IMG/VR virus record: IMGVR_UViG_3300012920_000113
Coordinates: 1-35,908 of that record
DNA length: 35,908 bases
Strand: one strand, 5' to 3'
Source of the DNA: a virus
A model generated the notes under the pieces. That model was not told the DNA's origin, did not search any database, and saw only the letters and a list, made by a program, of their open reading frames with translations. Of the stretch, positions 1 to 35,735 are shown piece after piece; position 1 is the first letter of the stretch; every line of letters begins with the position of its first letter. Made by a program: the position numbers and the translations under genes.

Positions 1-102
1 ACAGTTTCTTGGTTAGTAATTGGTGAAAGACATGACCAACACATGAAAGATACTGATTGGACTGATTCTGATGGTAAAGTAATAGTAGAGCCTACAAAAT
101 GA
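1..102 (+). CDS. C-terminal end of a tail-fibre-like protein (partial)
   Basis: Frame 1 is open from the first base and ends at TGA 100-102. The 33 visible residues include TVSWLVIGER and an acidic DTDWTDSDGKVIVEP segment. The SWLVIGE stretch looks like the last beta-strand of a lectin-like fibre tip (H-type lectins end in a similar pattern). Its position just upstream of small fibre-associated genes and a coiled-coil tail supports a receptor-binding or fibre protein. The start lies outside the window, so length and domains cannot be judged. It could also be another tail appendage protein. Confidence 0.5.
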   Translation, partial: TVSWLVIGERHDQHMKDTDWTDSDGKVIVEPTK

Positions 103-176
103 TAAAAGCTATACAAGAACAACAAGAACAGATTGATGCCTTACAATCTGAAATTAACTTACTAAAAGGAGAATAA
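99..176 (+). CDS. 25-residue coiled-coil peptide, fibre-tail-like
   Basis: The start ATG overlaps the stop of the fibre gene as ATGA, so translation is probably coupled. The product (MIKAIQEQQEQIDALQS then EINLLKGE) is a single amphipathic helix. It resembles the coil that ends many phage fibres carrying an intramolecular chaperone, where the last residues typically read LIKAVQEQQ..IE.L. Here it sits in the -1 frame relative to the fibre, so it is either a separate peptide or the product of a frameshift at the ATGA overlap. The ribosome binding site of the next gene (AAAGGAG) lies in its last codons. Confidence 0.4.
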   Translation: MIKAIQEQQEQIDALQSEINLLKGE

Positions 177-14346: not shown

Positions 14347-15542
14347 TGTCTTTAATTAAACAAGCAGAAGAATTAGAGTTTGTACCAAAGCAACAACTGA
14401 TACAAATGGCACAAAATCCAAGAGGAGATTATCCTCCTTTCTTGGTGATTAGCGAAATAGAAAGAAGAAAACAAAATGAAAGAGCATTTGAAGCTCAACA
14501 AGCAAAAGCCAATATGCCTACAACTACTGTTGCAGAAGAATCAGTTATGGAGTTTGCAGGTAGAGGCATAGCTCCGAGTAAACCTATGCTCATGGCTGGT
14601 GGTGGCATAACACAAATGCAAGTTGGTGGTGCTTTAGGTACAGGTAGCGATAGTCTTGCTGCATCATTTAGTCCCTTTATGCAAAAACCAGAAGAAGATG
14701 AAGATGGTATTTTTAGAAAAGCTATAGATTTTGCTAAAGAAAATCCAGCACAAGCCTTATCGTATGCCTCTAATGCTCTGCTGTTTTTACCTGGAGTAGG
14801 ATTACTAGGTATGGGTGCTATAAAAGCTGGAGCAAAATTATTACCTAGAGTAGTTCAAGCCGCAAAATCTGCAGGTCAAAAAGGTTTTACAAAACCAAAT
14901 CCTGCATTTATGAGAGGTCCACAAGGAAAAGGTAGTTTTACTATGGGTGGTCCAGAAAGAACATTTAGTTTAGCAAAAACTGCAACTGTAGGTTTACCAG
15001 CAATAGGAGCTACTAAATTAGGAGTAGAAGCATTGAGTGGTAATGAAACTACTACAATGGATAACAAAGGAATTACAGCACAAGAGCAAATAGCTCAAGA
15101 ATCACAAAGTAAATTACAGCAATTACTTACAAATACTGCTACATCTACAGATACTACAGATACAGATGATAGAGATAGATTTTTAACAATAGCTCAACTA
15201 GGTGGAGTTATAGGTGCAGCTAGAAACCCGTCTGAATTATCTGCAGGTCTTGGTCAATTAGCAGGCAATATACAGCAACAAAGACGTGGCGAATATATGA
15301 GACAAGCAGAGCTACAACTTAAACAAGCACAAATAGCACAAGTGCAAAGTGCTATAGAAAACTTACCTATTGAGCAACTTAATGAAACTTACAATGCTAT
15401 TATAGAAGGTATAAATGCTGGTCAGTTAGATGCTGAAGAGTATGGACCTACGTTAAACTCAATAGTACAAAGATTGATGGCGTTGCAAAGTATAGATATA
15501 GAACAAGGAGATACCTATAAACAGTTTGTATCTAATGCCTAA
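14346..15542 (+). CDS. internal/tail virion protein with central hydrophobic segment
   Basis: 398 residues, overlapping both neighbours by one base (TAATG). The start MSLIKQAEELEFVPKQQLIQ and the segment PPFLVISEIERRKQNERAFE are a conserved signature of a virion protein upstream of the giant internal protein. A hydrophobic stretch (ALSYASNALLFLPGVGLLGM) and a Gly/Ala segment follow, suggesting membrane interaction during ejection. The C-terminal half is Gln-rich helix. Role inferred from context. Confidence 0.6.
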   Translation: MSLIKQAEELEFVPKQQLIQMAQNPRGDYPPFLVISEIERRKQNERAFEAQQAKANMPTTTVAEESVMEFAGRGIAPSKPMLMAGGGITQMQVGGALGTGSDSLAASFSPFMQKPEEDEDGIFRKAIDFAKENPAQALSYASNALLFLPGVGLLGMGAIKAGAKLLPRVVQAAKSAGQKGFTKPNPAFMRGPQGKGSFTMGGPERTFSLAKTATVGLPAIGATKLGVEALSGNETTTMDNKGITAQEQIAQESQSKLQQLLTNTATSTDTTDTDDRDRFLTIAQLGGVIGAARNPSELSAGLGQLAGNIQQQRRGEYMRQAELQLKQAQIAQVQSAIENLPIEQLNETYNAIIEGINAGQLDAEEYGPTLNSIVQRLMALQSIDIEQGDTYKQFVSNA

Positions 15543-18500
15543 TGGAAACAATAAGATTAAATGAAAGTCAGGTTTTAAATTTACCAGAAAATTTAGACCC
15601 GCAAACTAGAGCAAAGATAGCTGCAGAAGTAAAAAGAGATTTTGGTATAGACATAAACCAAACAACATTACTTGGTAGAGCAACAGAGATACCAAAAGGT
15701 ATCGCAAGAGGTGCTACTTTATTAGCTACAGATGTGCCATTAGGTATATCTGCTTTGTTTGATGTTGGTGATGATGGTGTAATAACTAAAGGATTACAAG
15801 ATTTTCAGAAAAGAGTTAGAGAAACTTCACCTTTAGCAGCAAAACCAGGCTATGAAGATTTGTGGACAACTAAACTAGCAGAAGGTGTTGGTTCTTTTGT
15901 ACCATTTTTAGGTGCTGCAAAGGTTGGTCAAGTTCTTACCAAAACACCACAAAAATTATTTACTAAAGAATACTTTAAAAGTCCTGCATTTACAGTGCCT
16001 GGTGCTTTAGGTGTAACTTCTGGTATGGCACAACAAGCCGATAGAATAGAAATGGCTAGACAGTTAGGCGAAGATGTCGGTCCTGTAGCAGAAACACTAG
16101 CAACAGTAACAGGCGGTACTATTGGAGTATCAGAAGTATTACCTGTAGCAGCGATACTAAATAAATTATCTAAAGGTGCATTACTTGATGAAGTAATGGG
16201 TAACAAAATAAAAAGAGCATTAGTATCTGGAACCCAAGAGGGTGCTCAAGAGGTGTTTGCTAGTATTGCACAAGATGCTACAGCTAGAGGTTTTTACAGT
16301 GATGAGCTACCTATAGGTGAAAGCATATTAGATGAGTTTACTATAGGAGCAACCATAGGTGCTGGTGCAGATTTAATTTTAAATAGTTTTGCTGGTAGAA
16401 GAGGTTTAGCAAATCAAAGATTTAAAGACGAAGAACAAGCTGCTAGAGAAAATAATAGAATTGCACAAGAGAATAAAAAAGCAGAATTTGAACTAGCACA
16501 ACAACAAGGAGACCTAGAGGTATTACAACCTAGAGTATCTAAAGAAACACCAGATGTTCCAGTCCCACCAATCACTACAACAGTTCCAACTTTATCTGTG
16601 ATACAAACACCAGATGGTAAATACTCTTTAATTGACCCTACTAATACTACCCAACCAGTGCTTAGAGTTTTTGACACAGAGGCAAAAGCTTTAACATCTA
16701 AAAAAAGAGAACAAAACAAATTATTCAGAGAAAAAAATCTTAGCGAACTTACAAATGACTTATACAATTTAGGTCTTATAAACAGTTCTTCTGGTCTTGC
16801 TATGGGTAACACCATAAAAGATACAAACAACCAGTTTGTAAATGCCAAATCTATTATAGACTTTGATTCCAAAGTAGACCCCAAAAAACTAAAATCAAAA
16901 GACGATTACTTTAAAAACAAAAACGTAGATGTAAAAGATGCGTATACGTTTGCAGAAGTACGTAAAATTTTAAATGCTAAAGACCTTAATTTATTATTAA
17001 GAGACAAAGCATCACAAGTGTTTGCTGCTTCAGAAAAAGCAGGAGAGCCATCTATACGTGATGATAAGAAACTAGTTAATGTTAATAACAAAGCTATAAA
17101 AGATTTAGCTGCATCTAAAAACATAGAACTAGATTTTACAGACCCTGCTGTTAGATACTTTAGCAGACAGCTAACAGGCTTTGATGATATAGCCAAAGTT
17201 AAAAACCGTGGTGCAAAAGAACTATTTGTGGCACGTTTACACTCTCTTCCTAAGTTTAATGTCAAAACTAAATTCCCAGACTTCAGACCAAGAAACTACA
17301 CAGCACAAGATATGGCTGATTTTGTAGCTAATTACAAAACAGACAACATAAAGTTTGATGTAGGCTCTTTATTAAAAGCTGGTCCAGACCCAATAAGAAA
17401 AAATAAAGTTGCTACAGAGCAATTTGTACGAGACCTTGTTAATAGTGGTAGAGCAGAAAAAATAGAGGGTACAAACAACTATCAGATAAGAGATAATTTT
17501 GAGTTTGATATTGCAAGAAGAGCAGAAGGATTCAACGAAACACCTGAAGAGTTTGGTGCAAGACTTAAATCAGAAGGTGTGTTACCAGACGAAACTATTA
17601 CACAGCTACAAGAAGCTGAACAAGTAAGACAAGAAAGATTCTTACCACCAGAAGAAGTAGCACCAAAGATGATTAACTTTGCAGAGGCAGTTGAAGAAGG
17701 TAAAGTAAACAAGTTTGCAAAAGAGGCACAAAAAGTATTAGATGGTGTAGGCTTAGGTGAAGTTGGTTTAGTAATTAGCGATGATATATTGTCAACTACA
17801 GCTTTACGTAGAAGAGATGATACATTTGCTTTTGACCCAGAGGGTGTCACTCCAGGCACAAAAAGAGTAAGAGGTGAAGTAGCAGAGTATGACAGAAATA
17901 CTGATACTATATTTATATCTTTGAGTGCCATAAATCCAGATGGGACACTATCAGAGGTAGAAATACAACAAAGAATAAATAGAGTAATAAACCATGAACT
18001 TATCCATGCTTTACGTGCCAAAGATTTAATTACAGAAAAAGATTACACCTATTTAGCTAAAGAAGTAAAACGTAGAAAAGTGCCTGCATCTGTAGACCCT
18101 AGTGCTGCAGAAAGAGGTATTACATATTACACCAGAGCAGCAGAAAGTTATTCTAATTTAGTTGATAGAGCTACTCCTGAACAAAGAGAAGATTTATTTG
18201 TAGAAGAAGCTATAGCAGAGTTATACAAAAACAAAGATAGTAAACCAGATATACCACCAAAAGCTAAAACTATTTTAGGTAAGATTACACAGTTCTTTGA
18301 GTCTCTAGGTCAAGCATTTAAACGTTCAGGTTTTAATAGAGCATCAGAGATACTACAAGAGATAGAAGCGGGCAAAGTTGGTGCTAGAGAAAGAGGTGTA
18401 TTACGTTCTGTTAAAGATGTATTGCGACCAGCAAGTGCAGGCGTACCTACTTTTGCTAGAACAGATGAACCAGAAATAGGAAAGTTTACAATAAAAAAAG

Positions 18501-21500
18501 ATGAGTTTGTTGAAGGCAATATTAATGTAGGAAAAATACTTGGATATGACGTAGAAATATTTAGAGACCCAGGTGGGATGGGAGGTCAAAACTATTCTAT
18601 GATTATTACAGACCCAAGAGTAGACATGAATATAGATTTTGCATCCATAGGCTTGTTTAGTAAAAACTTACAAGAAGCAAAAAAAGATGCTGTAGATAAA
18701 ATTCAAACATTAATTAATGATGGAGAAATTTTAGACTTTGCTTCAACTTATTTTATGAGAGGAGTAGGTAAAAGAGAAGATGCAGTATTAGCAAAATTAA
18801 AAGATACAGACTTACCTACTTTTGCTAGGGGACCAAGAGATGAATCGTCTGGTCACTTAGCTGATTTTTTACCTGCACAATATGGTCCACCTGCACATCA
18901 ACTAGATATAGTATATAGCGATGAAAAAACAAAAGATGGTTATTATCCAGTTAGTTTTGGTTTTAGATATCCTATAAGACCAACAACAAAATCAACTACT
19001 GAAGAAATACAGAGAGCTAGACAAGCATTTATGCAATATAGCACAGCTAGAACACCACAAGAACAACAAGAAGAACGTGAGTTTATAAATAAACTTATGG
19101 AAATAAAAGGCAATCCAAATGCTATTATTACTATGTATCAAGCTGCACCACAAAGAGATTTACGAGAAGGAGATTTAATAACTCCATTTTTAAGTGAAGC
19201 TAATGCTCTTATAGAAGATTCTAAAGTTACTAAACAAGAAATAAAAGAAGCAGATAGAGCTAGAAGAAGGCAAGAACAGATAGATAAAACAGGTGCAATA
19301 AATTTACAACAAGAAAAAAACTTTGCAGCAATGGATGAAATTATGGATATGTTTGGTATGCCTGAAAGAACTCCATCAAAGTTACATATTTTTAAATTAA
19401 GAGCAGGAGATGTTCGTTGGGATGGTAATAATGGCTGGGCAAGATGGGGATATTTCCCAAGAATAAAAGCTGTAGAGGATATACCTACATTTAGTAGAGT
19501 TTCAGATATAAAAAATAAATATGCAAATGAAGATATTAAACTTGACATATTTGAAACAGAAAATGAAATTAAATTATCTAAAATAGTAGTTTCTGAAAAA
19601 AATATAGGATTAGGAACTTTTGTAATGAATGACCTAACAAACTATGCAGATAATAATAATAAAGTTATTACTTTAACTCCTAGCAAAGATTTTGGTGCAA
19701 CTTCTGTAAATAGATTAAAAACTTTTTATAAAAGATTTGGTTTTGTAGAAAATAAAGGTAGAAATAAAGATTTTTCTTACAAAGATACTATGTATAGATT
19801 GCCTAAAATAAGTCAAGATATGCCTACATTTAGTAGAGATGCAGACGATGCTTATTTTGCTAATGAAAGAAAAAAAAGAAGGTTAAGTAATTTAAAAGAA
19901 CAGTTAGTATTCCGTGAAGCTGAGTTAAATGAAGTTGGCAGTCAAATGACTGACAATACTAGAACTAATTTAGAAAAACAAATATCTAATATTAAAGATA
20001 GAATAACAGAAATAGAATCAGATATACCTACGTTTAGTAAAGGTGCTAGGTATAGTAAAAGAAAATTTAGTGACTTTTATTATCACATAACTCCTACTCC
20101 AAATGTAAGAGGTATTTTACAAAGTTCAATTAATCCTTTAAAACCTTCTAATTTTATAAATGCTAGAACAGGTAATAGATTTCAAGATGAGCCTGCAGTT
20201 TTTGCATTTACTAATCCAATAGATGCAATTCAATGGTGGAGTAATACAGAATTTAATAGAGAAGATTTATCTATGTTATTGATAGATAAAAATGCTAATG
20301 ATTGGACACAAGACCCAGCTAGTATGTCATTTAAAGGTAACATTAAAGAGGACTTTAGACTTGTAAATTCTGATGTATTTGGTTTTGGCTTTAATGAACA
20401 GCCTACTTCTGTTATAACTACGCAACCTGTTCAAGCAAAAGATATTAAAGGTTCATTAACACTTCCTGATTTATTTGGAAAATTAGGAGAAATGTATGGA
20501 ACTGTATCAGGACTTGATAATATAACACCCTATTACGGTTTATTACCAACTCGTATTGATGGTAAAGAAGAACAAATTACATATATGAATCGTGTTGCTG
20601 AAGCATTAAATCCTGTGAGTGCAAAAGATAAAAAACTATTAAATAATTTAGATAAAGCTGAAGAGTATGCAAAGTCTACAAGAAAATTTCAAGTCCCTAC
20701 CTATAATACAAACTCATCCGATGTCGCTTTAGATGCAGCAATAGAATTTAATGAGGATGGAACTCCAAAAGAACCAGACATACCAACCTTTAGTGTTGGA
20801 GAAATGCCACAAGAATTACAAGCATCAGCTAGAAGAGTAATGGGTGCCTATGATGCACCAACAGAGCCATACGGTGTAAGACTTATTGAATTAGTTTCAG
20901 ACCCAATAACTAATGTAAGAAAGCTATTTAAAAATGCAAGACAGCTATACATAGACAAGTACGATAAGATTGCTAGAAAGTCTATACAGTTATCAGAAGA
21001 AAATGATGCCATTAGATTATTAAATAATACTGCAGATACTAGTGCAATAGCTGCAATACGTATGTCAGACAGAGCAAGAGGTATATTCCAAGGCTTATTA
21101 ACTACTGGTTATGCAACAGATTTAGTTGACGGTGAGACAGGACTAATAAATGTTTTACCGTTAGAGCTATCAGCAGAATACAATACTTTCTTACAACCAG
21201 AAACACAAGACACACAAGATGTAAGTGGTAGAGTCGTCAAAGAAGCTGGCAAATATTACGGAGGTCTCACACAAATACTTGCACCAGTGTATACAAATTC
21301 TAGTGTAGACGGAGAACAGATATTCAAACTGTATGGAATACTAAAAAGAGCTAAGAAAATAGATGAAACTACTGGTAAAGAAACTCCTGTAACTGCAGAT
21401 GATTTAGCTAAAATACCTTATATAGAATCAAACTTTCCAGAGATAGTAGAAGCTTACAACAATTATCAAAGATGGAACAATCAACTTATAGAACTTGCTA

Positions 21501-23578
21501 AAAACAAAGGCTTATTGAGTGAGGCACAAGCAACTCAGTGGCAAGACTATTCTGCGTATTATCCTTTCTATAGAAATATGGTTGAAGATGGTAGTATTCT
21601 TGGACCCTCGATTGGTGGTGGTGCTTTACCAACTAATCCGCTTGGGGTAAAAATGAAAGGCTCAGTAGAAGCCATAGACACAAACCCTGTAGAAGCTATA
21701 GCAAGAAACTCTTTATCTATTTTAAATGCAGCCATGAAAAACGATGGTATGCAAAAGCTAATGAGAGATTTACAACTTAACGGAGAAGCAGAGTTAGTAG
21801 ATGTAACACAAGCTAGTAGACCAGATGTTGTACCAGTTTTTGTAGATGGAGAAAAAGTTTATTACAGAGTAGATGACTTAGAGCTAGTAGAAAGTATGCA
21901 AGGCATGGGAGTTACAAGTCTAAGTGGATTATCTAAGTTCTTGGCTATGCCAGCATCTTTCTTAAGAGATGTTGTAACAAGAGACCCAGGCTTTGTGGTT
22001 GTCAACTTATTAAGAGATACATTATCTGCATCAGTAACATCAGGTGTGCCAATAAATAGTGAAGAGGGTGGATTTAAACCAGTTATTACTACTGTTAGAA
22101 ATATGTTTAGAGACATGACTGAATTAGAAAGGTTTGGTGTGTTGGGTGGTTACGACTTCCAAAATGATGAAGGCTCGGTGAAACAATTTGTTGATAGAGC
22201 CATAAGGAAAGAAGGCATAAACCCAGACAATAGTATGAGTATGTCAAACTTATTCTATAAAGCTTGGGATGGTTTGGGTGCATTAACAACTAAATCAGAT
22301 GGTGCTACTAGATTAGGTGTCTTTGATGCGGTATACAAAGACATAAAAGAAAGAGGCGGTACAGAAGCACAAGCACAATCAGAAGCTGCTTATCAAGGAT
22401 TAGAAATAATTAACTTTGGAAGAAGAGGCTCAGACCCACTGTTTAGAACAATCACAGCAGCTATTCCTTTTTTAAATGCCAGAATACAAGGTTTAGATGT
22501 ACTTTACAGAAGCTTTGGCACTGGAGAATATTCAGCAGTACAAAAATTAGAAGCAGCGTCTCCAGAAGCTGCGGCAAATCTCAAACAAGATATTTTTTAT
22601 ACTGCAATGTCCAGGGGTATGTTTATTACATTCCTAACTTTATTATATTACTTAATGGTTTCTGATGACGAAGAATATCAAAACATAAGAAGAGAAGTTA
22701 GAGACGATAACTGGATAATACCTTTAGGTAACGACATACCTGCAGTAAAAATACCTATACCTTTTGAGGTTGGTATGGTGTTTAAAGCGATACCAGAAAG
22801 AACTTTTGATTTAGCTATGGGAGAAACATCTCTAAGCGAATACTCTAAATCACTACGAAGGCAGTTAGGCACATCTGCAAACATACCTTTCTTTGATGGT
22901 AGTGTTGCATTTCAGGTTATTAAACCTATAGCTGATGTAGTTGCAAATAGAAATAGTTTTACAGGCACGGATATTGTTCCTTACTATCAAACTAAATTAG
23001 AACCAGCATATCAACAAAGAGCAACAACAAATGAGTTAGCACGTGTCATTGGAGAAACGTTTAACGTATCGCCAATCAAACTAGAATACATAGTAAGAGG
23101 TTATACAGGAACTCTTGGTGGTTATTTATTAGATGCTGCAGATTCTGTAACAAGACTAGGAACAGGTACACCATACATACCACCTAACATAAACTCAGTG
23201 CCAGTAGTAAAAAGGTTTTTATTAGACTTAGATAAAGGCGGTGGCTTGCAACAACAGTTTTATGACTTAAGAAACGAGGTTGATAGAGCAGTGCAGACTA
23301 TGAATAAACTTAAAAAAGCACAAAGGTTTGATGAACTGCAAGCATATAGAACTAATATGCAAGGTGTGTTAAATGTCAAAGGTCAAATCAGAGCAATAGA
23401 AAGATACATGGACAACTGGAGAAAACGTAGAGATGTTTTACTTGCAAGAACTGACATCAATCCATTAGTAAAAGCTGAATTACTAGAACAATTAGAGATG
23501 GAAAGAGATAAAAGGTTGTCGATAATTACAGAACTTAAAAAGAAAGCAAACGTTCCTGCTTACCAGATGGGATTATAA
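15542..23578 (+). CDS. giant polyvalent internal virion protein (gp16-like) with zincin, ART-like and GNAT-like modules
   Basis: 2678 residues. Seen in order: N-terminal Ala/Gly hydrophobic region (about 50-290); helical region; zinc-protease motif INRVINHELIHALRA with His818-Glu819-His822; six copies of a (V/L/I/M)PTF(S/A) linker with Pro at about 969, 1092, 1315, 1428, 1496 and 1748. The pieces between linkers are: small alpha/beta (974-1088); ART-like (1097-1312, ITMYQAAPQRDLREGDLIT...VRWDG...WGYFP); GNAT-like (1319-1424, VSEKNIGLGTFVMND...FYKRFGFVENKGRN); coiled coil (1433-1492); a second ART-like piece (1500-1745, YYHITPTPNVRGIL). The 930-residue C-terminus resembles the large polyvalent-protein domain of ejected proteins. 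It probably enters the host with DNA. Confidence 0.82.
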   Translation: METIRLNESQVLNLPENLDPQTRAKIAAEVKRDFGIDINQTTLLGRATEIPKGIARGATLLATDVPLGISALFDVGDDGVITKGLQDFQKRVRETSPLAAKPGYEDLWTTKLAEGVGSFVPFLGAAKVGQVLTKTPQKLFTKEYFKSPAFTVPGALGVTSGMAQQADRIEMARQLGEDVGPVAETLATVTGGTIGVSEVLPVAAILNKLSKGALLDEVMGNKIKRALVSGTQEGAQEVFASIAQDATARGFYSDELPIGESILDEFTIGATIGAGADLILNSFAGRRGLANQRFKDEEQAARENNRIAQENKKAEFELAQQQGDLEVLQPRVSKETPDVPVPPITTTVPTLSVIQTPDGKYSLIDPTNTTQPVLRVFDTEAKALTSKKREQNKLFREKNLSELTNDLYNLGLINSSSGLAMGNTIKDTNNQFVNAKSIIDFDSKVDPKKLKSKDDYFKNKNVDVKDAYTFAEVRKILNAKDLNLLLRDKASQVFAASEKAGEPSIRDDKKLVNVNNKAIKDLAASKNIELDFTDPAVRYFSRQLTGFDDIAKVKNRGAKELFVARLHSLPKFNVKTKFPDFRPRNYTAQDMADFVANYKTDNIKFDVGSLLKAGPDPIRKNKVATEQFVRDLVNSGRAEKIEGTNNYQIRDNFEFDIARRAEGFNETPEEFGARLKSEGVLPDETITQLQEAEQVRQERFLPPEEVAPKMINFAEAVEEGKVNKFAKEAQKVLDGVGLGEVGLVISDDILSTTALRRRDDTFAFDPEGVTPGTKRVRGEVAEYDRNTDTIFISLSAINPDGTLSEVEIQQRINRVINHELIHALRAKDLITEKDYTYLAKEVKRRKVPASVDPSAAERGITYYTRAAESYSNLVDRATPEQREDLFVEEAIAELYKNKDSKPDIPPKAKTILGKITQFFESLGQAFKRSGFNRASEILQEIEAGKVGARERGVLRSVKDVLRPASAGVPTFARTDEPEIGKFTIKKDEFVEGNINVGKILGYDVEIFRDPGGMGGQNYSMIITDPRVDMNIDFASIGLFSKNLQEAKKDAVDKIQTLINDGEILDFASTYFMRGVGKREDAVLAKLKDTDLPTFARGPRDESSGHLADFLPAQYGPPAHQLDIVYSDEKTKDGYYPVSFGFRYPIRPTTKSTTEEIQRARQAFMQYSTARTPQEQQEEREFINKLMEIKGNPNAIITMYQAAPQRDLREGDLITPFLSEANALIEDSKVTKQEIKEADRARRRQEQIDKTGAINLQQEKNFAAMDEIMDMFGMPERTPSKLHIFKLRAGDVRWDGNNGWARWGYFPRIKAVEDIPTFSRVSDIKNKYANEDIKLDIFETENEIKLSKIVVSEKNIGLGTFVMNDLTNYADNNNKVITLTPSKDFGATSVNRLKTFYKRFGFVENKGRNKDFSYKDTMYRLPKISQDMPTFSRDADDAYFANERKKRRLSNLKEQLVFREAELNEVGSQMTDNTRTNLEKQISNIKDRITEIESDIPTFSKGARYSKRKFSDFYYHITPTPNVRGILQSSINPLKPSNFINARTGNRFQDEPAVFAFTNPIDAIQWWSNTEFNREDLSMLLIDKNANDWTQDPASMSFKGNIKEDFRLVNSDVFGFGFNEQPTSVITTQPVQAKDIKGSLTLPDLFGKLGEMYGTVSGLDNITPYYGLLPTRIDGKEEQITYMNRVAEALNPVSAKDKKLLNNLDKAEEYAKSTRKFQVPTYNTNSSDVALDAAIEFNEDGTPKEPDIPTFSVGEMPQELQASARRVMGAYDAPTEPYGVRLIELVSDPITNVRKLFKNARQLYIDKYDKIARKSIQLSEENDAIRLLNNTADTSAIAAIRMSDRARGIFQGLLTTGYATDLVDGETGLINVLPLELSAEYNTFLQPETQDTQDVSGRVVKEAGKYYGGLTQILAPVYTNSSVDGEQIFKLYGILKRAKKIDETTGKETPVTADDLAKIPYIESNFPEIVEAYNNYQRWNNQLIELAKNKGLLSEAQATQWQDYSAYYPFYRNMVEDGSILGPSIGGGALPTNPLGVKMKGSVEAIDTNPVEAIARNSLSILNAAMKNDGMQKLMRDLQLNGEAELVDVTQASRPDVVPVFVDGEKVYYRVDDLELVESMQGMGVTSLSGLSKFLAMPASFLRDVVTRDPGFVVVNLLRDTLSASVTSGVPINSEEGGFKPVITTVRNMFRDMTELERFGVLGGYDFQNDEGSVKQFVDRAIRKEGINPDNSMSMSNLFYKAWDGLGALTTKSDGATRLGVFDAVYKDIKERGGTEAQAQSEAAYQGLEIINFGRRGSDPLFRTITAAIPFLNARIQGLDVLYRSFGTGEYSAVQKLEAASPEAAANLKQDIFYTAMSRGMFITFLTLLYYLMVSDDEEYQNIRREVRDDNWIIPLGNDIPAVKIPIPFEVGMVFKAIPERTFDLAMGETSLSEYSKSLRRQLGTSANIPFFDGSVAFQVIKPIADVVANRNSFTGTDIVPYYQTKLEPAYQQRATTNELARVIGETFNVSPIKLEYIVRGYTGTLGGYLLDAADSVTRLGTGTPYIPPNINSVPVVKRFLLDLDKGGGLQQQFYDLRNEVDRAVQTMNKLKKAQRFDELQAYRTNMQGVLNVKGQIRAIERYMDNWRKRRDVLLARTDINPLVKAELLEQLEMERDKRLSIITELKKKANVPAYQMGL

Positions 23579-23580
23579 AT

Positions 23581-23600
23581 AATATTCACTAGTGATTATA
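23581..23600. repeat. dispersed palindrome copy at the convergent gene junction
   Basis: AATATTCACTAGTGATTATA, with the perfect core CACTAGTG. It supplies the TAG stop of the minus-strand gene and lies three bases after the stop of the giant virion gene. Confidence 0.7.
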
Positions 23601-25068: not shown

Positions 25069-25383
25069 TTAGAATGGTGGTTCAATGCCTTCATCTTCTT
25101 CTCCCACGTTTGTATTAAAATCTTCTTCAATATCTTCTTTAGGTTTTGGAACATAACACTCTATTTTAGTATAGAGGTATTTATTACCCGCCTTAGATAC
25201 TCTCTCCCATTGTGCTATACCAACTTGTACTTCTTCATTTGGTGACTCTTTAATTTGAGTTACAAATTCTTTAAGTAGTTCTTTGGTCATAGGTATTTTC
25301 CCAGTCCAATCAGGCTGTTGACTTCCAACCTTTTTAAAACCATTGATACCTACTGGTCCTTCAATTACTGCCTTATCATCCAT
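25069..25383 (-). CDS. SSB-like protein with acidic C-terminal tail
   Basis: 104 residues from ATG 25383, which has GAGGAG upstream; the longer frame to 25440 runs through the DUF1071 gene. The body has WTGKIPMTKELLKEFVTQIK and EEVQVGIAQWERVSKAGNKY, a pattern seen in small phage proteins beside annealing proteins. It ends in an acidic tail closing with DEGIEPPF, similar to the DDIPF tip by which SSBs recruit partners. ssDNA binding is inferred from tail, length and position between recombination genes. Confidence 0.5.
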   Translation of the reverse strand: MDDKAVIEGPVGINGFKKVGSQQPDWTGKIPMTKELLKEFVTQIKESPNEEVQVGIAQWERVSKAGNKYLYTKIECYVPKPKEDIEEDFNTNVGEEDEGIEPPF

Positions 25384-26044
25384 CGTTTTTCTCCTCAAGT
25401 GTTGCGATATACTCTTTGCAATAGTTATCAATATCTGCAAGCATATCAGGGTTTATAGATTCAAGTCTTTTTATAGACTTGCCATTGCTTTTATAATAGT
25501 TTTGCACTGACTCTCTAGTCTTATGTGTCTTTACTAAATTTTTGAATCCTTTAACAAAAGTATTTGCCCATCCAATATCTTCATCAACATCATTCTTTTG
25601 CACTTCTTGTTTAGTATCTTTTATATTATCTGAAGATACTTCATCTTGTGGTAAATCCTCATTTGCATAAATATAATGTCCTAGACCATATATGCCAAAA
25701 CATTTAGTTAAACACCTCTGCTTTGCAGTATTTATTTGAAAAGCATTAGGATTTATTATGGGTTTAAACCCAATAGATAAAGGCAATGATTGTGTCCTAG
25801 ACAAGTTACCTATATTAACTGTGCATCTAACCTCTGCACTACCGTCAGGCAAAGAAACATAGGGTAAACCATCTTCTGTTTCATAAAAACTAAATTGAAA
25901 TTCAGGATAGTATTGCATCATAATACCCCATGCCCACGCCCAAGAAAGATAAGTTAAACCTTGTTTTTCGTCTGTATGTTCATTTACATTTACAGCAGAC
26001 AAAGTTTTCCATACTTCTTCAAATGTATATTTTTGTTCATTCAT
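25376..26044 (-). CDS. single-strand annealing protein, DUF1071/Sak3 type
   Basis: 222 residues. LTYLSWAWAWGIMMQYYPEF, the DGSAEVRCTVNIG strand, NPNAFQINTAKQRCLTKCFG and IYGLGHYIYANEDLPQ are the core motifs of DUF1071, a Rad52-superfamily annealing family (Sak3). The C-terminal 80 residues are a separate helical extension (WANTFVKGFKNLVKTHKTRE). It should pair complementary ssDNA in phage recombination, with the exonuclease encoded just upstream. One base separates it from that gene. Confidence 0.87.
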   Translation of the reverse strand: MNEQKYTFEEVWKTLSAVNVNEHTDEKQGLTYLSWAWAWGIMMQYYPEFQFSFYETEDGLPYVSLPDGSAEVRCTVNIGNLSRTQSLPLSIGFKPIINPNAFQINTAKQRCLTKCFGIYGLGHYIYANEDLPQDEVSSDNIKDTKQEVQKNDVDEDIGWANTFVKGFKNLVKTHKTRESVQNYYKSNGKSIKRLESINPDMLADIDNYCKEYIATLEEKNDG

Positions 26045-26045
26045 T

Positions 26046-26813
26046 TTATACCCTCAGTTCTGAATTATAATTTTTGACTAATTTCCAATAGCTTAATAAA
26101 TAATTAAACATATCAGTATGTTTGGAATGTGACTCTTCATCCCATACATGACAAGCTATTACACCTGTTTCACTTCTATCAACAAAGATAGAAACTCTTT
26201 CAGCAGTATCAAAGCCACACCCTTGAGCATAAGCTGACAACTGCATACCATGTTCATCGTATACTAATCTCTTTGGGTCTTTGCCCTCAAGATTATCTTT
26301 TGTTTTAAAATCAACAAAGATACCGCTTTGTGAATACAAATCTATTTTGCCTCCATATCCTTGCTTTGCACAAAAAGAATCTTCTGCTATCCACACCTCA
26401 TTAGGATAGTGTTCATCTAACCAATCCTTAACGACCTCGTAAGGCTCTGTAACAATATCTGATACAAAACCTTGCTCTATCATTGCGTGTACCTCTGTGC
26501 CTCTCTCAGAGGCTTCCTTGCCTATCAAACTAGAATGATGTTTAATTCTAATAAGATAGTCCTCTAAGCTTTCATCTTCCTCTTTATCTAGTTCCATACA
26601 AGAATAAATAGTTTGTGACATCTTCCAGTTCTCAAGACCAGGTTTTGCCAACAAAGATAATACAGTTGTTACAGAGGGAACTAGATTTAGTTTCTTAGCA
26701 TCAGCTAATGTAGTATTTCTTTCTTTACCATTCTTGCCAACAACTGTATACATAGGAGTACCAGTTTGCGTATACCAGTGACCTGCTTCTGAAGTATATT
26801 TAGATTCACTCAT
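26046..26813 (-). CDS. PD-(D/E)XK exonuclease (RecB/Cas4-like)
   Basis: 255 residues from ATG 26813, which overlaps the previous stop as ATGA; a TTG at 26825 is possible. Motifs: KEASERGTEVHAMIEQG (motif with His), YGGKIDLYSQSGIFVDFKTK (Asp...Asp-x-Lys) and HGMQLSAYAQGCG (Gln...Tyr). These are the RecB-type nuclease motifs of phage 5'-3' exonucleases. No Cys cluster is visible, so the Cas4 Fe-S version is unlikely. It probably resects DNA ends for the annealing protein. Confidence 0.83.
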   Translation of the reverse strand: MSESKYTSEAGHWYTQTGTPMYTVVGKNGKERNTTLADAKKLNLVPSVTTVLSLLAKPGLENWKMSQTIYSCMELDKEEDESLEDYLIRIKHHSSLIGKEASERGTEVHAMIEQGFVSDIVTEPYEVVKDWLDEHYPNEVWIAEDSFCAKQGYGGKIDLYSQSGIFVDFKTKDNLEGKDPKRLVYDEHGMQLSAYAQGCGFDTAERVSIFVDRSETGVIACHVWDEESHSKHTDMFNYLLSYWKLVKNYNSELRV

Positions 26814-27055
26814 GCTATTCGCCAAACACCTACACCATCGTCAATCATCCTAACACTAAACTTTTTATGAGGATTCTTATGTGTATAACGTAAAACGTAA
26901 TTACTAATTATTTTCTTTTCTTGATATATTTTTGTTTTAGGTAATGCTATAGTAATACTTTGATTTACTTGCATTTCATGTAGAGGCAAATCATATTTAG
27001 GGGGTCTACCTCTTGATGCTGGAAGTGGAATACCATCTTCTATTTTAAAGTTCAT
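26810..27055 (-). CDS. first gene of the recombination operon (DUF7303-like)
   Basis: 81 residues. FKIEDGIPLPASRGRPPKYD then LPLHEMQVNQSITIALPKTK and a C-terminal FSVRMIDDGVGVWRI match small phage proteins with a IP.P..RGR..KYP...M..G.S pattern and a C-terminal R.....G.RVWR. I know these as DUF7303-type, from memory. Function unknown, possibly DNA-associated. GGAG precedes the ATG, and it is the first gene after promoter 27087-27115. Confidence 0.6.
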   Translation of the reverse strand: MNFKIEDGIPLPASRGRPPKYDLPLHEMQVNQSITIALPKTKIYQEKKIISNYVLRYTHKNPHKKFSVRMIDDGVGVWRIA

Positions 27056-27509: not shown

Positions 27510-29282
27510 ATGCAAGCACAGGAGATTATCAAATCTAAAGCCTACAATCTATCAAACGGACAACACAAAGTAGAGTGTCCCTTTTGTCAAAATGATAGAA
27601 AAAAACACAAGCACGATAAACCATTGTCTATCAAAAAAGAAGGACAAAAAATAGTGTATCATTGTCATCACTGTAACGAAAAAGGTATTTATGATGAGAG
27701 TTTTGGGAGAGGTATGAGTGTCGTAAAAAATGGTGAACAGCCTGGGCAGCCTGAAGCTGCGAAAAATAATATTCACCAGTGTATGAATTTTACTGAGCAA
27801 ACTGATGGTGCATCGTACGAATGGATAAAAGCTAGAGGATTAGATGTAGAGGTTGCCAAAAGTTGTGGAGTTCGTTTTGGAGAGTATAAAAACAGACCAG
27901 TTATAGGCTTTGATTTTAATAACGAAGAAGGTTTAGAGGCAGTAAAGTACAGGAGTGCTAATGGTTCTAAAAGTTTTTGGTGGGACGGTAATGCTAAAAA
28001 GCTATGGGGCAACAACGAGATAGTTGAAAATTTAGATACACTAGAGAATACAATTATTATTACAGAGGGGGAACTAGATACAGTAGCAATTAAAACTGCG
28101 TTTAAGGATTACGCTAATGTAGAGGTATACAGTGTTCCTAATGGTAGTCCAAGTAAAATTACTGACAACAAAGTAGACCCAAGCGAAGATGGTAGATTTA
28201 AATACGTATGGGAAGAAAGAGAAAAGTTTAAAGACAAACAAAAGATTATACTAGCTACAGATACAGACCATGCAGGGGATGTGCTTGCACACGAACTATC
28301 AAGAAGATTAAACAAGGCAAGATGCTATAGAGTTAATTATTTAGATTGCAAAGATGCCAACGAGTTGTTACAAAAACATGGTATTGAATCTACTATCAAA
28401 CAAGTATTAGATGCTGAACCTGTAGAAATACACGGACTAAACACAGTAGACCATTATGCTTTGGATGTTCAAAGTTTATATGACAAAGGACTACCTAGTG
28501 GTGTATCAACTGGTTACGAGTCACTTGATAAAATCTACACTGTTTCTACGGGTATGTTAAATATTGTTACAGGCTATCCAGGTGACGGCAAATCTGCATT
28601 TATAGACCAATTAATCGTAAATTTAGGTAAGCAACATGGTTGGAAAACTTGTTTTTGTTCGTTTGAAAAACCACCACAACTGCACGTGGTACAACTATCA
28701 CAAGTATTAGTGGGCAAACCTTTTTTTGAAGGGTTCAATGCACGTATGACACAAGAAGAAAAAGACTATGCGGAGGGTTGGATAAAAGAACATATCTTAT
28801 TTCAAGACTATCAAGACGGAGGTCTACCAACTATAGAGGCAATCCTAGAAAAAGGAGCAAGTGCTGTCATGCGTAGTGGCATTAGAGTCTTAGTTATAGA
28901 CCCATATAACTTTATACATAATGATTCTAAAAATGGGTTGGAGACTGACATGGTTTCAGAGATGTTGACTAAGGTTCAACTCTTTGCAAAACAACATGAC
29001 GTGCTTGTAATTTTTGTTGCACATCCTACAAAGCCATTTCAAAGAGACGGAAAAAAGAATGTATGCACAGGTGTTGATGTCGCTAAATCAATGGCTTGGT
29101 TTAGCAAAGCTGACATGGGGTTGACTGTCTATCGTGGAGATAGCGGGGTTGAGATACATAACTGGAAGTGTCGTTGGGGTTGGCAAGGTAGCTTGGGTAA
29201 TGTTAAGATGTCTTTCAATCCTATTAATGGGAGATATAAAGAGTTAGAGGAGGTTGAAGATAACTTTGACTGGAACTTTTAA
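27510..29282 (+). CDS. primase-helicase, T7 gp4-like
   Basis: 590 residues with AGGAGG-like GGAGG before the ATG. Zinc-binding primase domain: CPFC and CHHC around residues 18-57. TOPRIM core: IIITEGELDTVAIK and IILATDTDHAGDVLAHEL. RecA-type DnaB helicase: Walker A VTGYPGDGKSAFIDQL, Walker B VLVIDPYNFIH, then VIFVAHPTKP. It primes lagging-strand synthesis and unwinds DNA at the phage fork. The linker between zinc and TOPRIM domains contains a copy of the dispersed palindrome (27768). It overlaps the next gene by 29 bp. Confidence 0.93.
   Translation: MQAQEIIKSKAYNLSNGQHKVECPFCQNDRKKHKHDKPLSIKKEGQKIVYHCHHCNEKGIYDESFGRGMSVVKNGEQPGQPEAAKNNIHQCMNFTEQTDGASYEWIKARGLDVEVAKSCGVRFGEYKNRPVIGFDFNNEEGLEAVKYRSANGSKSFWWDGNAKKLWGNNEIVENLDTLENTIIITEGELDTVAIKTAFKDYANVEVYSVPNGSPSKITDNKVDPSEDGRFKYVWEEREKFKDKQKIILATDTDHAGDVLAHELSRRLNKARCYRVNYLDCKDANELLQKHGIESTIKQVLDAEPVEIHGLNTVDHYALDVQSLYDKGLPSGVSTGYESLDKIYTVSTGMLNIVTGYPGDGKSAFIDQLIVNLGKQHGWKTCFCSFEKPPQLHVVQLSQVLVGKPFFEGFNARMTQEEKDYAEGWIKEHILFQDYQDGGLPTIEAILEKGASAVMRSGIRVLVIDPYNFIHNDSKNGLETDMVSEMLTKVQLFAKQHDVLVIFVAHPTKPFQRDGKKNVCTGVDVAKSMAWFSKADMGLTVYRGDSGVEIHNWKCRWGWQGSLGNVKMSFNPINGRYKELEEVEDNFDWNF
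27768..27790. repeat. dispersed palindrome copy in the primase-helicase linker
   Basis: ATAATATTCACCAGTGTATG. In frame it encodes NNIHQCM, between the zinc and TOPRIM domains. Confidence 0.45.
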
Positions 29283-29781
29283 TGGATTACAAATCAATGA
29301 CATAGGCTCTCCCTATGTTCACAAACGTCATAAAGTTGGCGTGGTTAAGATTGGCAAAAGCAAAATGGGTCGTGCAGTGGTGTATGACCAACACTTAATA
29401 GACAATCTATACCTAGACAATCTAATAACAGATAGAGAACACATGATACTAGACAAGTATCTTTATATGATTGCAAAAAGTGGGGCGTTTTTACCATCGT
29501 GTTTTCCATCAGATATAAAAATATTCACTGGTGGATATAATTCTGAGCTTCTGCCAAGGTCTGTAATGTTAGTTAGAGTGCAAAGATTCTTGCGTGAAGA
29601 AACCAGTAATGCTTTGGAACAAAAGTTTTGGAAACTAATGATAAGAAATCCAAAGACTTACAACGATTTAGATGTAGCAGTAGTGCAAAGGTGTGGTAAT
29701 GCTTTACAAAGTTATTGGTATGTTAATCAACAGTCTCCTGTTTCATTGTTTCAGCAAGCGATTGCAAGCCAACCAATTTAA
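29254..29781 (+). CDS. unrecognised protein following the primase-helicase
   Basis: 175 residues from TTG 29254; the true start is unclear because there is no in-frame ATG early on. TTG 29266, 12 bases after GGAGG, or a GTG at VGVVKIG are alternatives. Visible segments: RHKVGVVKIGKSKMGRAVVY, DQHLIDNLYLDNLITDREHM and VMLVRVQRFLREETSNALEQ. No family recognised. A palindrome copy lies inside its codons (KIFTGGYN). Its 3' end overlaps the convergent ribbon-helix-helix gene by 59 bp. Confidence 0.55.
   Translation: MKITLTGTFNGLQINDIGSPYVHKRHKVGVVKIGKSKMGRAVVYDQHLIDNLYLDNLITDREHMILDKYLYMIAKSGAFLPSCFPSDIKIFTGGYNSELLPRSVMLVRVQRFLREETSNALEQKFWKLMIRNPKTYNDLDVAVVQRCGNALQSYWYVNQQSPVSLFQQAIASQPI
29517..29540. 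repeat. dispersed palindrome copy in the 29254 gene
   Basis: AAAATATTCACTGGTGGATA then TAA; encodes KIFTGGYN. Confidence 0.6.
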
Positions 29782-29968
29782 CCTCTTGACTATCAACTGA
29801 CTCATCTTCTACAGTTGTTGGTTCTGAATTAATAACAACATTATTTGCATCAGCCATGCTATGTATCATGTGGATTATTTGTTTATTTAGACTTCTATTT
29901 TCTTTTTTCGCTAGTGCGTGTGCTAGTTCGTAAGTCTCTTCTGCACATCTAATGTAAAGATTTTTCAT
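29723..29968 (-). CDS. ribbon-helix-helix type DNA-binding protein candidate
   Basis: 81 residues from ATG 29968 with AGGAG six bases upstream; a GTG one codon earlier is also possible. KNLYIRCAEETYELAHALAK then KENRSLNKQIIHMIHSMADA gives a short strand, helix, SLNKQI second helix: the Arc/MetJ layout. The C-terminal 40 residues are acidic. RHH dimers bind short palindromes, so it is a candidate reader of the dispersed CACYRGTG palindrome or regulator of its own operon. The fold call is by pattern only. Confidence 0.55.
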   Translation of the reverse strand: MKNLYIRCAEETYELAHALAKKENRSLNKQIIHMIHSMADANNVVINSEPTTVEDESVDSQEVKLVGLQSLAETMKQETVD

Positions 29969-30248
29969 CACTGTCTCCTTTAAAAACTATATCTATTTTA
30001 TCTTCTACTTTGCCAACAGCTACACTTTCCCTACCTACTTGCCAAAATTTACCTGTTTGTAAAGTTTCTATGGCGTGTGCCAAATAGTGTTCGTTAGCTA
30101 TCAACAAAGGGTTATCAAGTAAAGTAATAGCATAGGTCATAGCCTCTTGTTCAGTGTCAAACAACCAAACTCTATGTTTCCATTCTCCATAAGAATTGTA
30201 TTTATCACTAACGTCAATCTCAAAAGTGTGTCTGATTACAGCATACAT
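29949..30248 (-). CDS. small early protein, unrecognised, leaderless
   Basis: 99 residues: YAVIRHTFEIDVSDKYNSYG, EWKHRVWLFDTEQEAMTYAI, then a C-terminal KVEDKIDIVFKGDSDEKS. Mixed alpha/beta, no family recognised. An extended -10 (TGATATAAT, 30255-30263) ends six bases before the ATG, so the mRNA should be leaderless. A parS site lies just upstream of the promoter. It overlaps the RHH gene by 20 bp. Confidence 0.6.
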   Translation of the reverse strand: MYAVIRHTFEIDVSDKYNSYGEWKHRVWLFDTEQEAMTYAITLLDNPLLIANEHYLAHAIETLQTGKFWQVGRESVAVGKVEDKIDIVFKGDSDEKSLH

Positions 30249-30287: not shown

Positions 30288-30303
30288 TGTTCCACGTGAA
30301 ACA
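30288..30303. other. parS: parS centromere-like site (ParB binding site)
   Basis: The 16 bases read TGTTCCACGTGAAACA, a full match to the bacterial chromosomal parS consensus TGTTNCACGTGAAACA. Chromosomal ParB (a CTPase clamp) loads at this sequence and spreads. It lies in a non-coding stretch, just upstream of the 30248 promoter and next to the palindrome array. No parA or parB gene is visible in the window, so host ParB would be the reader. No second copy was found. A 16-bp exact match is very unlikely by chance in 36 kb. Confidence 0.85.
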
Positions 30304-30362
30304 CAATATCTAGTATTAAAAATCCTACTGCAACACAAGATACTGTGGTGTTGTCCTGCTCT

Positions 30363-30390
30363 AAAATATTTTCACTGGTGAATATAATTT
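30363..30390. repeat. dispersed palindrome copy, array member 1
   Basis: AAAATATTTTCACTGGTGAA then TATAATTT. Centre 113 bp from member 2. Confidence 0.75.
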
Positions 30391-30470
30391 GTTCCTATTC
30401 CAACATTACCATTTTTATAAATACGCATGCCTTGACAAACTCTACCGATTGCAGTGTTATGTGCCTTCGG

Positions 30471-30503
30471 GATTAAAAATATTTTCACTAGTGAATACTA
30501 ATC
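30471..30503. repeat. dispersed palindrome copy, array member 2 (33 bp, best defined)
   Basis: Bounded by GATTA and TAATC ends around the perfect core TTCACTAGTGAA. Thirty-three bp, a multiple of three, separating two in-frame fibre fragments and introducing TAG. Confidence 0.78.
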
Positions 30504-30581
30504 AGTCTTTCGTTGACCTACTGCTGTATTATCGTAACCTATCGCTGTGTTTTGTTGACCTCCATCTCCGTCATCTCCTAC

Positions 30582-30608
30582 AAAAAAATATTTTCACTGG
30601 TGATTAAG
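30582..30608. repeat. dispersed palindrome copy, array member 3
   Basis: AAAAATATTTTCACTGGTGA then TTAAG. Centre 109 bp from member 2. Confidence 0.75.
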
Positions 30609-30631: not shown

Positions 30632-30671
30632 CATAAAAAAAGGGCAAAGACCTAGGGGGTTAGCTTTGCCC
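30632..30671 (-). terminator. strong rho-independent terminator of the small-gene operon
   Basis: AAAGGGCAAAG (30638-30648) pairs perfectly over 11 bp with CTTTGCCCTTT across a 14-nt loop. On the minus strand it is followed by seven or more T. It closes transcription from 31894 down to 30706. Confidence 0.88.
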
Positions 30672-30705: not shown

Positions 30706-30912
30706 TTAGTTTAGTTTATCTTTTTTTAATTCGTTTGCAAGTTCATCTTGCAATGAGTTTAGTTGTGCTGTTAATAAGAATCTAGTTTCCTCTTGTGTTT
30801 TAATTACTTGCCCTAGTATTTTTATAAGACTTTCAGTTACAACAAGCCAGTTACTTAATGATTCATTAAGTAAATGTAAGACTTCTTTATCAACTTTTTT
30901 TAGTTTTAACAT
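30706..30912 (-). CDS. small coiled-coil protein
   Basis: 68 residues, one long amphipathic helix with heptad spacing: LKKVDKEVLHLLNESLSNWL, LIKILGQVIKTQEETRFLLT, NSLQDELANELKKDKL. The ATG is preceded by AGGAAAAAG. Last gene before the terminator. Its 5' end overlaps the upstream gene by 59 bp. Function unknown. Confidence 0.5.
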   Translation of the reverse strand: MLKLKKVDKEVLHLLNESLSNWLVVTESLIKILGQVIKTQEETRFLLTAQLNSLQDELANELKKDKLN

Positions 30913-32781: not shown

Positions 32782-32815
32782 AAAAATATTTTATAATCAC
32801 CAGTGAATATCAATC
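32782..32815. repeat. dispersed palindrome copy between iterons
   Basis: AAAAATATTTTATAATCACC then AGTGAATATCAATC. This copy is in the opposite orientation to the others (CACCAGTG on +). It lies between the third and fourth AGACTATCTA iterons. Confidence 0.7.
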
Positions 32816-33384: not shown

Positions 33385-34722
33385 TTATCTAAAATTTGCT
33401 ACATCTATATAAACCTTTTCGCCAAAAGGTACTTCTGAATCATAGGAACGTCCTCTATAAGTTGAAACCGCCCATATTACTGGAACATCAGGTTCAACAT
33501 CTTCAGATACATAGCCTTGCAAATCAGTAAAGTAGATAAACGCACAGACATTATCAGTATCTTCAGTGTGTTCATTATATAGATTAAAGGGCGGGTCAAA
33601 TCTAGTGTAGCCTCCGCCTCTTAAAACAAATTCTAAATCCTCCCCGCTAGATAAGTCGAACGAATCCCACCACTCGCCCGCATCATTTTTGCGAACTGTA
33701 TCATCACAGTAGCAAACTCTGATTTTATCTATTCCGCATTTCTCACAGAGACTTTGCAATTCGCTAGCGAATATATTTAACTCTTCTTGAGAAACTGACA
33801 TTGAAGTATCAAGGGCAACTACAATTTCGCCACCCTCAACAATCTTGTCTCTAGTTGGTAAGTAAATACCTCGCCAACTATGTCTGCGGTTAGGTCTATT
33901 CCATGTATTACAACCCTCGAGAGTTGACTCTAACATTTCAAGTAAGACTGATTTCCAGTCAACTTGAGTCTGCTTTAATTCATCAACTCTGCCTCGCAAG
34001 TCTGAACCTCCAGTTCCAAAGCTTGCAATTTTATCAGCCATAATAACTTGTGAACGTATTTGTGAAGATAACTCTTCCAACTCTTCAACGTTAAGCTTTT
34101 CGCCTTGGTCATTAGTTGGTTCGATAACCTCGCCCGCTAAAGTTGGCAAGTCATCATATTTATCTTCAGCTTGTCCGCCACTTGATGATTCATCTGCTGG
34201 TTCATCTTGTGATTCAGAAATATTTTCACTGGTGGATATATTTTCATCGTCACTTTCTTCTGAATCAGAATCAGAATCATTTTGTGCTTGGGCATTTTTG
34301 ATAGCATCTTCAAGGGCATCATCGTTAGTATCTAGTTCCCTATATACTTCCTCTGCTGTCCATTTGTGATACTTAGTATCAAAAAGTCCGCCTTGGGGTA
34401 AAGACATATTTAAGTCTAAAATCAGATAGCTATTGATTACATAATCAGTAGCATAATTCCATAACTTATGATGCCTACTTCCTTTTCTCAAAGGATGTTC
34501 CCATATTACGTGACAACACTCGTGAATTAAAACTCCCTCAACTTCATCATCTGAAATTGAATCTACGAAATCGGGATTCCATAAAATTTGAGTTCCATTA
34601 GTTGCCATGGTATCAATGCTAGTAGTCTCAACAAATTCAAGGTTAAGTAACATAGATGCTATACCTATGTTACCTTTCATTAACCTTGCCTTTGATTTTT
34701 CTACTCTCTCTAACGCGGTCAT
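33385..34722 (-). CDS. VWA-like protein with N-terminal HExxH domain (DUF2201 type)
   Basis: 445 residues. N-terminal metallopeptidase-like domain with VEGVLIHECCHVIWEH (His67-Glu68-His71) and LWNYATDYVINSYL. An acidic Ser/Asp/Glu linker (about 140-200) follows, then a VWA-like domain with MIDAS motif VVALDTSMSVS (about 305) and IYFTDLQGYV. DUF2201 proteins occur in phages with a MoxR-type AAA+ ATPase and DUF3150 protein; as a set they are thought to act like a chaperone or remodelling machine. Start overlaps the upstream stop (ATGA). A dispersed palindrome encodes part of the linker (ENISTSENIS, about 163-172). Confidence 0.85.
   Translation of the reverse strand: MTALERVEKSKARLMKGNIGIASMLLNLEFVETTSIDTMATNGTQILWNPDFVDSISDDEVEGVLIHECCHVIWEHPLRKGSRHHKLWNYATDYVINSYLILDLNMSLPQGGLFDTKYHKWTAEEVYRELDTNDDALEDAIKNAQAQNDSDSDSEESDDENISTSENISESQDEPADESSSGGQAEDKYDDLPTLAGEVIEPTNDQGEKLNVEELEELSSQIRSQVIMADKIASFGTGGSDLRGRVDELKQTQVDWKSVLLEMLESTLEGCNTWNRPNRRHSWRGIYLPTRDKIVEGGEIVVALDTSMSVSQEELNIFASELQSLCEKCGIDKIRVCYCDDTVRKNDAGEWWDSFDLSSGEDLEFVLRGGGYTRFDPPFNLYNEHTEDTDNVCAFIYFTDLQGYVSEDVEPDVPVIWAVSTYRGRSYDSEVPFGEKVYIDVANFR
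34218..34244. repeat. dispersed palindrome copy inside the VWA gene linker
   Basis: GAAATATTTTCACTGGTGGA then TATATTT. On the minus strand it encodes ISTSENIS in the low-complexity linker, so it does not break the gene. Confidence 0.7.
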
Positions 34723-35697: not shown

Positions 35698-35735
35698 ATT
35701 AGTATTCACTAGTGAATAAAAAATATTCTCTAGTA
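35698..35735. repeat. dispersed palindrome copy plus degenerate second copy upstream of the DUF3150 gene
   Basis: ATTAGTATTCACTAGTGAAT then a degenerate ATATTCTCTAGTA twenty bases on. It lies directly upstream of the ribosome binding site at about 35680, where a promoter or operator would be expected. Confidence 0.7.

Follow-up and report, generated by a model that had tools for sequence, protein, structure and literature searches.

Fragments of tail-fibre genes beside a repeated AT-rich element in the non-coding islands of a phage family

Non-coding islands in a family of tailed phages contain short pieces that derive from coding tail-fibre DNA, and the association of these pieces with a repeated AT-rich element recurs across the family. 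The fibre likeness of the pieces is not due to chance, and the arrangement is one of repeated capture or conversion, not of one decaying gene. As to its origin, we put at about one in two the probability that scraps of coding fibre sequence, partly foreign, have repeatedly been captured or converted at slots beside the element by short-homology annealing through the annealing protein Sak. No published description of recurrent fibre-specific capture beside a repeated motif was found.

The DNA analysed (the window) is a complete IMG/VR virus record of 35,908 bases from a tailed phage that has no close relative in culture. Sequenced phages, including the Pelagibacter phages HTVC027P and HTVC023P, have proteins that match its stabilisation-type structural protein at no more than about 39% identity, and no DNA similar to the window was found among sequenced phages. 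The genome collection held a single distant relative, on a betaproteobacterial MAG contig, and no host was assigned from this match. An Rfam scan and a tRNA search of the window gave no match. Among its genes, 15542-23578 encodes a 2,678-residue protein, and ORFs of comparably giant size, roughly 2,300 to 3,300 residues, are present in relatives. The 583-residue ORF 5029-6780, which judging by its sequence resembles an adenylate cyclase with a sensor domain, would be unusual for a phage structural region. For 33385-34722 the labels disagree: it resembles a metallopeptidase and VWA-like protein (DUF2201), and the PHROGs label is HNH endonuclease. The island under study is 0.46 kb of non-coding DNA between the minus-strand genes 29949-30248 and 30706-30912 (Table 1).

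An earlier note on this DNA had described three palindrome copies about 110 bp apart that bound two tail-fibre segments sharing one frame, separated by a TAG and devoid of a start or ribosome-binding site. This description was borne out. The repeat is a near-palindrome, the start-to-start spacing of its copies is 113 and 109, and the repeats are approximately 81-84 percent identical to each other. Between them, the minus strand carries the fibre motifs NTAIGYDNTAVGQ, NTAIGR, and MRIYKNGNVGIGT; the translations NTAIGYDNTAVGQ and NTAIGRVCQGMRIYKNGNVGIGT lie in one frame, which is split by the TAG in the middle palindrome. Their open frames comprise only 31 and 41 codons (31 to 52 for all piece-bearing frames), and no plausible start with a ribosome-binding site was found for the fragment frames of the window. 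A 15-residue profile built from the fibre genes of relatives scored 18.6 bits at 30551, and no score reached 10 in ten dinucleotide shuffles of 100 kb of non-coding sequence. The 21-mer GATAATACAGCAGTAGGTCAA of fragment A occurs exactly and in frame (DNTAVGQ) in one other IMG/VR record, within a 511-aa fibre ORF. A short-peptide tblastn search against sequenced phages gave no match with queries too short to be decisive, and the exact pattern NTA-GY-NTAVG was not found in IMG/VR. Beyond what the earlier note reported, the window holds a fourth fragment, a parS-like 16-mer just outside the interval considered there, and further palindrome copies elsewhere.

Table 1. Positions of the features discussed, in the coordinates of the window.
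Feature	Position	Strand	Basis
Fibre fragment A, GDDGDGGQQNTAIGYDNTAVGQR	30511..30578	-	Profile match; 21-mer GATAATACAGCAGTAGGTCAA
Fibre fragment B, HNTAIGR	30441..30461	-	
Fibre fragment C, MRIYKNGNVGIGT, motif preceding the fibre chaperone domain	30390..30428	-	20-mer scan
Fibre fragment D, DNTTVSCVAVGFLIL, outside the interval of the earlier note	30311..30355	-	12 bits on first profile
Element copy 1 (AAATATTTTCACTGGTGAATA)	30364..30384	+	
Element copy 2 (AAATATTTTCACTAGTGAATA)	30477..30497	+	
Element copy 3 (AAATATTTTCACTGGTGATTA)	30586..30606	+	
Element copy at convergent gene junction	23583..23598	.	
Intergenic element copy	32794..32809	.	
Intergenic element copy, directly upstream of the 35672-34719 gene	35703..35718	.	
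Element-like copy within ORF 29254-29781; in relatives also within the same gene	29519..29537	+	
Element-like copy within ORF 33385-34722 (minus)	34220..34238	+	
Short Arc-like protein, candidate element binder	29723..29971	-	Weak PHROG Arc-like matches; two-helix model
Sak single-strand annealing protein, proposed mover of fragments	25376..26044	-	PF06378 3e-36
Exonuclease, likely partner of the annealing protein, adjoins Sak	26046..26825	-	PHROG 298, 1.7e-14
Conserved gene, left border of island	29949..30248	-	Comparison with relatives
Strong hairpin with a T run behind it (minus strand); likely terminates the minus-strand genes 35672-30706	30642..30671	-	Sequence
Likely 3' end of the phage's own fibre gene (MIKAIQEQQEQIDALQSEI)	1..157	+	
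parS-like palindrome TGTTCCACGTGAAACA, one copy in the window	30288..30303	.	Exact 16-mer

The islands of relatives were compared over the 600 bp that follow the start of the gene at 29949, which is conserved, and this gave 64 distinct islands, the window included. Short fibre motifs numbered 68 in these islands, compared with a mean of 1.06 and a maximum of 4 in 50 shuffles, and 31 of the 64 carried at least one. Over the same islands, the reversed motif gave 0 matches and four scrambles gave 0-3. A first profile, taken from the fibre genes of two relatives, was scored on 14 genomes and gave 13 matches of at least 12 bits in their non-coding DNA, compared with none in five dinucleotide-shuffled sets; a second, with 293 fibre sites and 27 genomes, gave 15 matches of at least 11 bits and none in ten shuffle sets. 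The 20-mer GGTAATGTTGGAATAGGAAC (GNVGIGT) is common to fragment C and the fragments of several relatives. Across IMG/VR, 74 of its 81 analysed matches lie in open frames of at least 100 codons; six of the seven non-coding matches belong to the window's phage family and lie beside the element. Likewise, GGTCAACAAAACACAGC lies within coding sequence in three records; in one further record, a member of the window's family, it is non-coding and beside the element. Distinct fragments lay within 60 bp of the element in 26 of 30 cases, compared with 15.5 expected from random placement within the same non-coding segments (p 2e-5).

The pieces are 20-70 bp long, irregular in length and position, and occur on both strands and both sides of the element. 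An antisense RNA to fibre mRNA was ruled out, as no strand preference was seen. By type they are shaft repeats (NTTGxxNTAVG) and the pre-chaperone motif (MRIxxxGNVGIGT), not receptor-binding tips. No recognisable piece of a non-fibre gene was found in a search sensitive only to about ten or more well-kept residues. One way to account for such pieces, offered in the earlier note, is the decay in place of a fibre copy that once occupied the island and was invaded by the element. The two window pieces in one frame and their fibre-like order agree with it, but no fibre gene was found in the relatives' islands examined, the pieces lie on both strands and both sides, they are swapped between near-identical phages, and G014 and G019 hold pieces without an NTAVG-type fibre gene. 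The family comparison thus already largely refutes an in-place relic, which we regard as extremely improbable. Runs of AAYACN repeats (encoding NTNTNT) occur in the islands of L006, L103, and L113 and are possibly expansions grown from fibre pieces.

Variation of the array between relatives and resemblance of the fragments to fibre genes were the two observations on which the earlier note had staked its reading, and both were found. The islands of near-identical phages differ inside the pieces, often as copies with other codons. L066 and L067 carry AATACAGCAGTAGG and AATACTGCTGTTGG, with three silent changes in NTAVG; L040 and L039 are nearly identical except that unrelated bases in L039 take the place of GNVGIG in L040; G003, G005, and G007 have the same flanks with three different contents; and L044/L046/L042 are a further case of turnover. 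Identical islands were recovered in contigs of independent samples and are therefore not assembly chimeras. Over aligned pairs, 23 of 37 differences fall at third codon positions (p 3e-4), a test that is biased by the omission of wholly replaced pieces, for which no alignment is possible, so that it gives support and not proof. The same excess would be expected of short translated peptides under selection, with the synonymous changes reflecting coding constraint. Stops directly beside the pieces and the lack of starts speak against such peptides, and one-base slips inside pieces of G003, G007, L048, and L049 argue against translation; of all the readings considered, we give this one the least credence.

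The sequences also bear on where the pieces came from. The near-complete genomes G014 and G019 possess pieces and no NTAVG-type fibre gene, and elsewhere the match of pieces to the phage's own fibre is not clearly better than that to the fibres of other phages or to codon-shuffled fibres. On the latter ground, an origin of the pieces as copies of the phage's own present fibre was not supported. Taken together, these two findings imply that the donors are apparently at least partly other phages. In the window, the record starts within what is likely the end of the phage's own fibre gene, with stops close by in the fibre frame; this end may be damaged or mis-read.

The earlier note had also suggested a store of receptor-binding variants. 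Such variants would be switched into the working fibre gene, and the fibre identity of the pieces and their variation between relatives are what such a store would display. Of the earlier interpretation, fibre pieces, a repeated element, and variation among relatives stood, while neither the store nor the relic was supported. The pieces are too short and come from shaft repeats or the pre-chaperone motif, the element is absent from the two fibre genes checked (those of G010 and G012), and the own-fibre match is no better than others. Moreover, the machinery of switching was not detected in 13 genomes, where neither a reverse transcriptase (PF00078; control positive in 3), nor a serine recombinase (PF00239; control positive in 10), nor a tyrosine recombinase (PF00589; control positive in 14) was present. 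A variant store is very improbable on these grounds. Diversity-generating retroelements resemble the islands in keeping part of the gene for a receptor-binding protein as a non-coding copy, but they differ in their reverse transcriptase and template/variable pair, neither of which was seen here, and in adenine-limited differences, whereas those in the islands are of all kinds and mostly at third positions. The serine recombinase of an invertible fibre switch of the Gin/Cin type and the tyrosine recombinase integrase of an integron-like cassette array were likewise not found in the 13 genomes, and the element, as a would-be crossover site of the Gin/Cin type, was not found in the G010 and G012 fibre genes, the two inspected.

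The element itself is a family-wide feature. In the window, a family element, AAATATTT(A)CYRGT (also written AAATATTT..CYRGT), takes the form of the palindrome AAATATTTTCACYRGTGAATA. The right-hand symmetry of the family element is weaker than that of the window's palindrome, and 313 distinct copies of it were counted in the loci examined. At up to three mismatches, the palindrome matched the window five times compared with 0.06 expected. Six perfect copies of the element in the window are all intergenic, and three one-mismatch copies lie in ORFs. The element-like copy at 29519-29537, in the gene 29254-29781, is present in relatives as well, and that part of the coding sequence may be constrained by the element. 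The slot corresponding to 23583-23598 contains a fibre fragment in G003 and G005. The window's exact version is absent from 13 relatives (57-64% helicase identity) and was not found elsewhere in IMG/VR, where the only matches to the element-plus-motif pattern were three copies of a single stretch, which lies in an open frame and is apparently coding and unrelated. Spacing between copies in relatives is 41-398. In eight genomes studied in detail, the early and replication half carries most of the copies; they occur in either orientation, both intergenically and at certain conserved positions within genes.

The element is probably a regulatory or DNA-binding site. A promoter was considered because copies occur just upstream of genes, some of them 15-31 bases from a start codon; an ordinary gene promoter was rejected, since a start with a ribosome-binding site is found within 60 bp for only 14 of the 123 intergenic copies. 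A search for a T7-type RNA polymerase as reader of the element gave no match, and the positive control gave none either. The Arc-like neighbour at 29723-29971 is conserved in relatives and has a two-helix core in a moderate-confidence model; it is perhaps the binder of this site, and that its product binds the element is a guess. The 32 bases upstream of the element fold better than shuffled sequence (z -0.49, s.e. 0.06; downstream, -0.09), a modest but significant stem-loop tendency.

As Arbiol reportedly described in 2010, T4-type phages carry mobile regulatory cassettes with an early promoter and a stem-loop. If the element and its upstream stem-loop moved as such a unit, the fibre pieces would be passengers at its borders. 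Consistent with this are the upstream folding, the copies close to start codons, and the element's hundreds of copies, most of them within the early and replication module, and the repeated intergenic AT-rich element, the stem-loop tendency, and a variable early region are shared with the T4-type cassettes. On the other side, the phages are unrelated, most copies are not near a gene start (the 14 of 123 above), some occupy conserved coding positions, and passengers from fibre genes only are unaccounted for; to our knowledge, fibre pieces are not part of T4-type cassettes. We consider mobile cassettes quite unlikely.

Annealing-mediated capture or conversion, the reading we prefer, draws on proteins that the family encodes. 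Sak (PF06378) was detected in 13 of 13 genomes, and in the window the exonuclease gene adjoins it. Rad52-like phage recombinases recombine short diverged stretches (De Paepe 2014, PMC3945230); the types examined in that study were Redbeta, RecT, and Erf, and did not include Sak. In the course of infection, the phage's own fibre DNA or that of a co-infecting phage, in single-stranded form, would serve as donor, the exonuclease and Sak would anneal it at short stretches of partial identity, and annealing would convert or seed pieces in the slots beside the element, where DNA would tolerate change. Fibre repeats would be the preferred substrate, since no other sequence in these phages is as repeated or as widely shared; most fibre genes found contain approximately 25-47 repeat units. 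The pieces would require no function. Sak as the agent, co-infection as the source of donors, and the neutrality of the pieces are what we infer. The likeness to the mosaicism produced by Rad52-like proteins (Redbeta, Erf, Sak; PMC3945230) lies in the exchange of short diverged stretches between phages and in the presence of Sak and an exonuclease; the difference is that genes or modules are exchanged there, and the products here are non-coding scraps of one gene class beside one element. Homologous conversion leaves unexplained how a piece is first captured, why pieces lie close to the element, and why pieces of other genes are missing. The recurrence in about half of the islands may reflect selection.

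In another reading the islands are a functional array, in which pieces of other phages' fibre genes would be collected beside a dedicated repeat as decoys, guides, or homology arms, for use in conflict or exchange with co-infecting phages, with the element as the repeat or a regulatory site. Such an array would act on DNA because strand does not matter. What fits this proposal is that the pieces come only from fibre genes, abut a repeated element, are of foreign origin, and turn over rapidly, and that the window and other islands have a repeat-piece-repeat layout, but no effector or guide-RNA gene was identified, the Rfam scan of the window was empty, piece length and position are irregular and without strand bias, and half of the islands contain no recognisable piece. 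We judge it unlikely. CRISPR arrays and phage mini-arrays share the layout and pieces apparently from other phages; they differ in that the repeats here are 81-84 percent identical, their spacing varies, and the pieces are irregular. No Cas effector was found among the proteins scanned, which were part of the ORFs, and the exonuclease has a weak secondary match to a CRISPR-associated PHROG.

The islands have other features as well. parS-like palindromes (TGTTCCACATGGAACA and others) occur in 49 of 77 relatives, one copy per genome and typically approximately 43 bp upstream of the same gene; the palindrome may be a site for ParB, the partition protein of the host, that the phage family has kept. 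At least two DnaA boxes (TTWTCCACA) within 900 bp are present in 31 of 77 islands of relatives (e.g., L044, L103-L114, and G008-G013), which suggests an origin of replication there; none was found in the window's island.

The fibre-only content and the tight link to the element need an explanation beyond general phage mosaicism. Even as a by-product of recombination, the islands would be a natural record, readable from metagenomes, of the fibre genes encountered by a phage lineage, and would offer a rare opportunity to observe annealing proteins recombining 20-40 bp pieces in the wild. If the pieces are used, they would amount to a new form of sequence memory, or of weapon, in the dealings of phages with one another.
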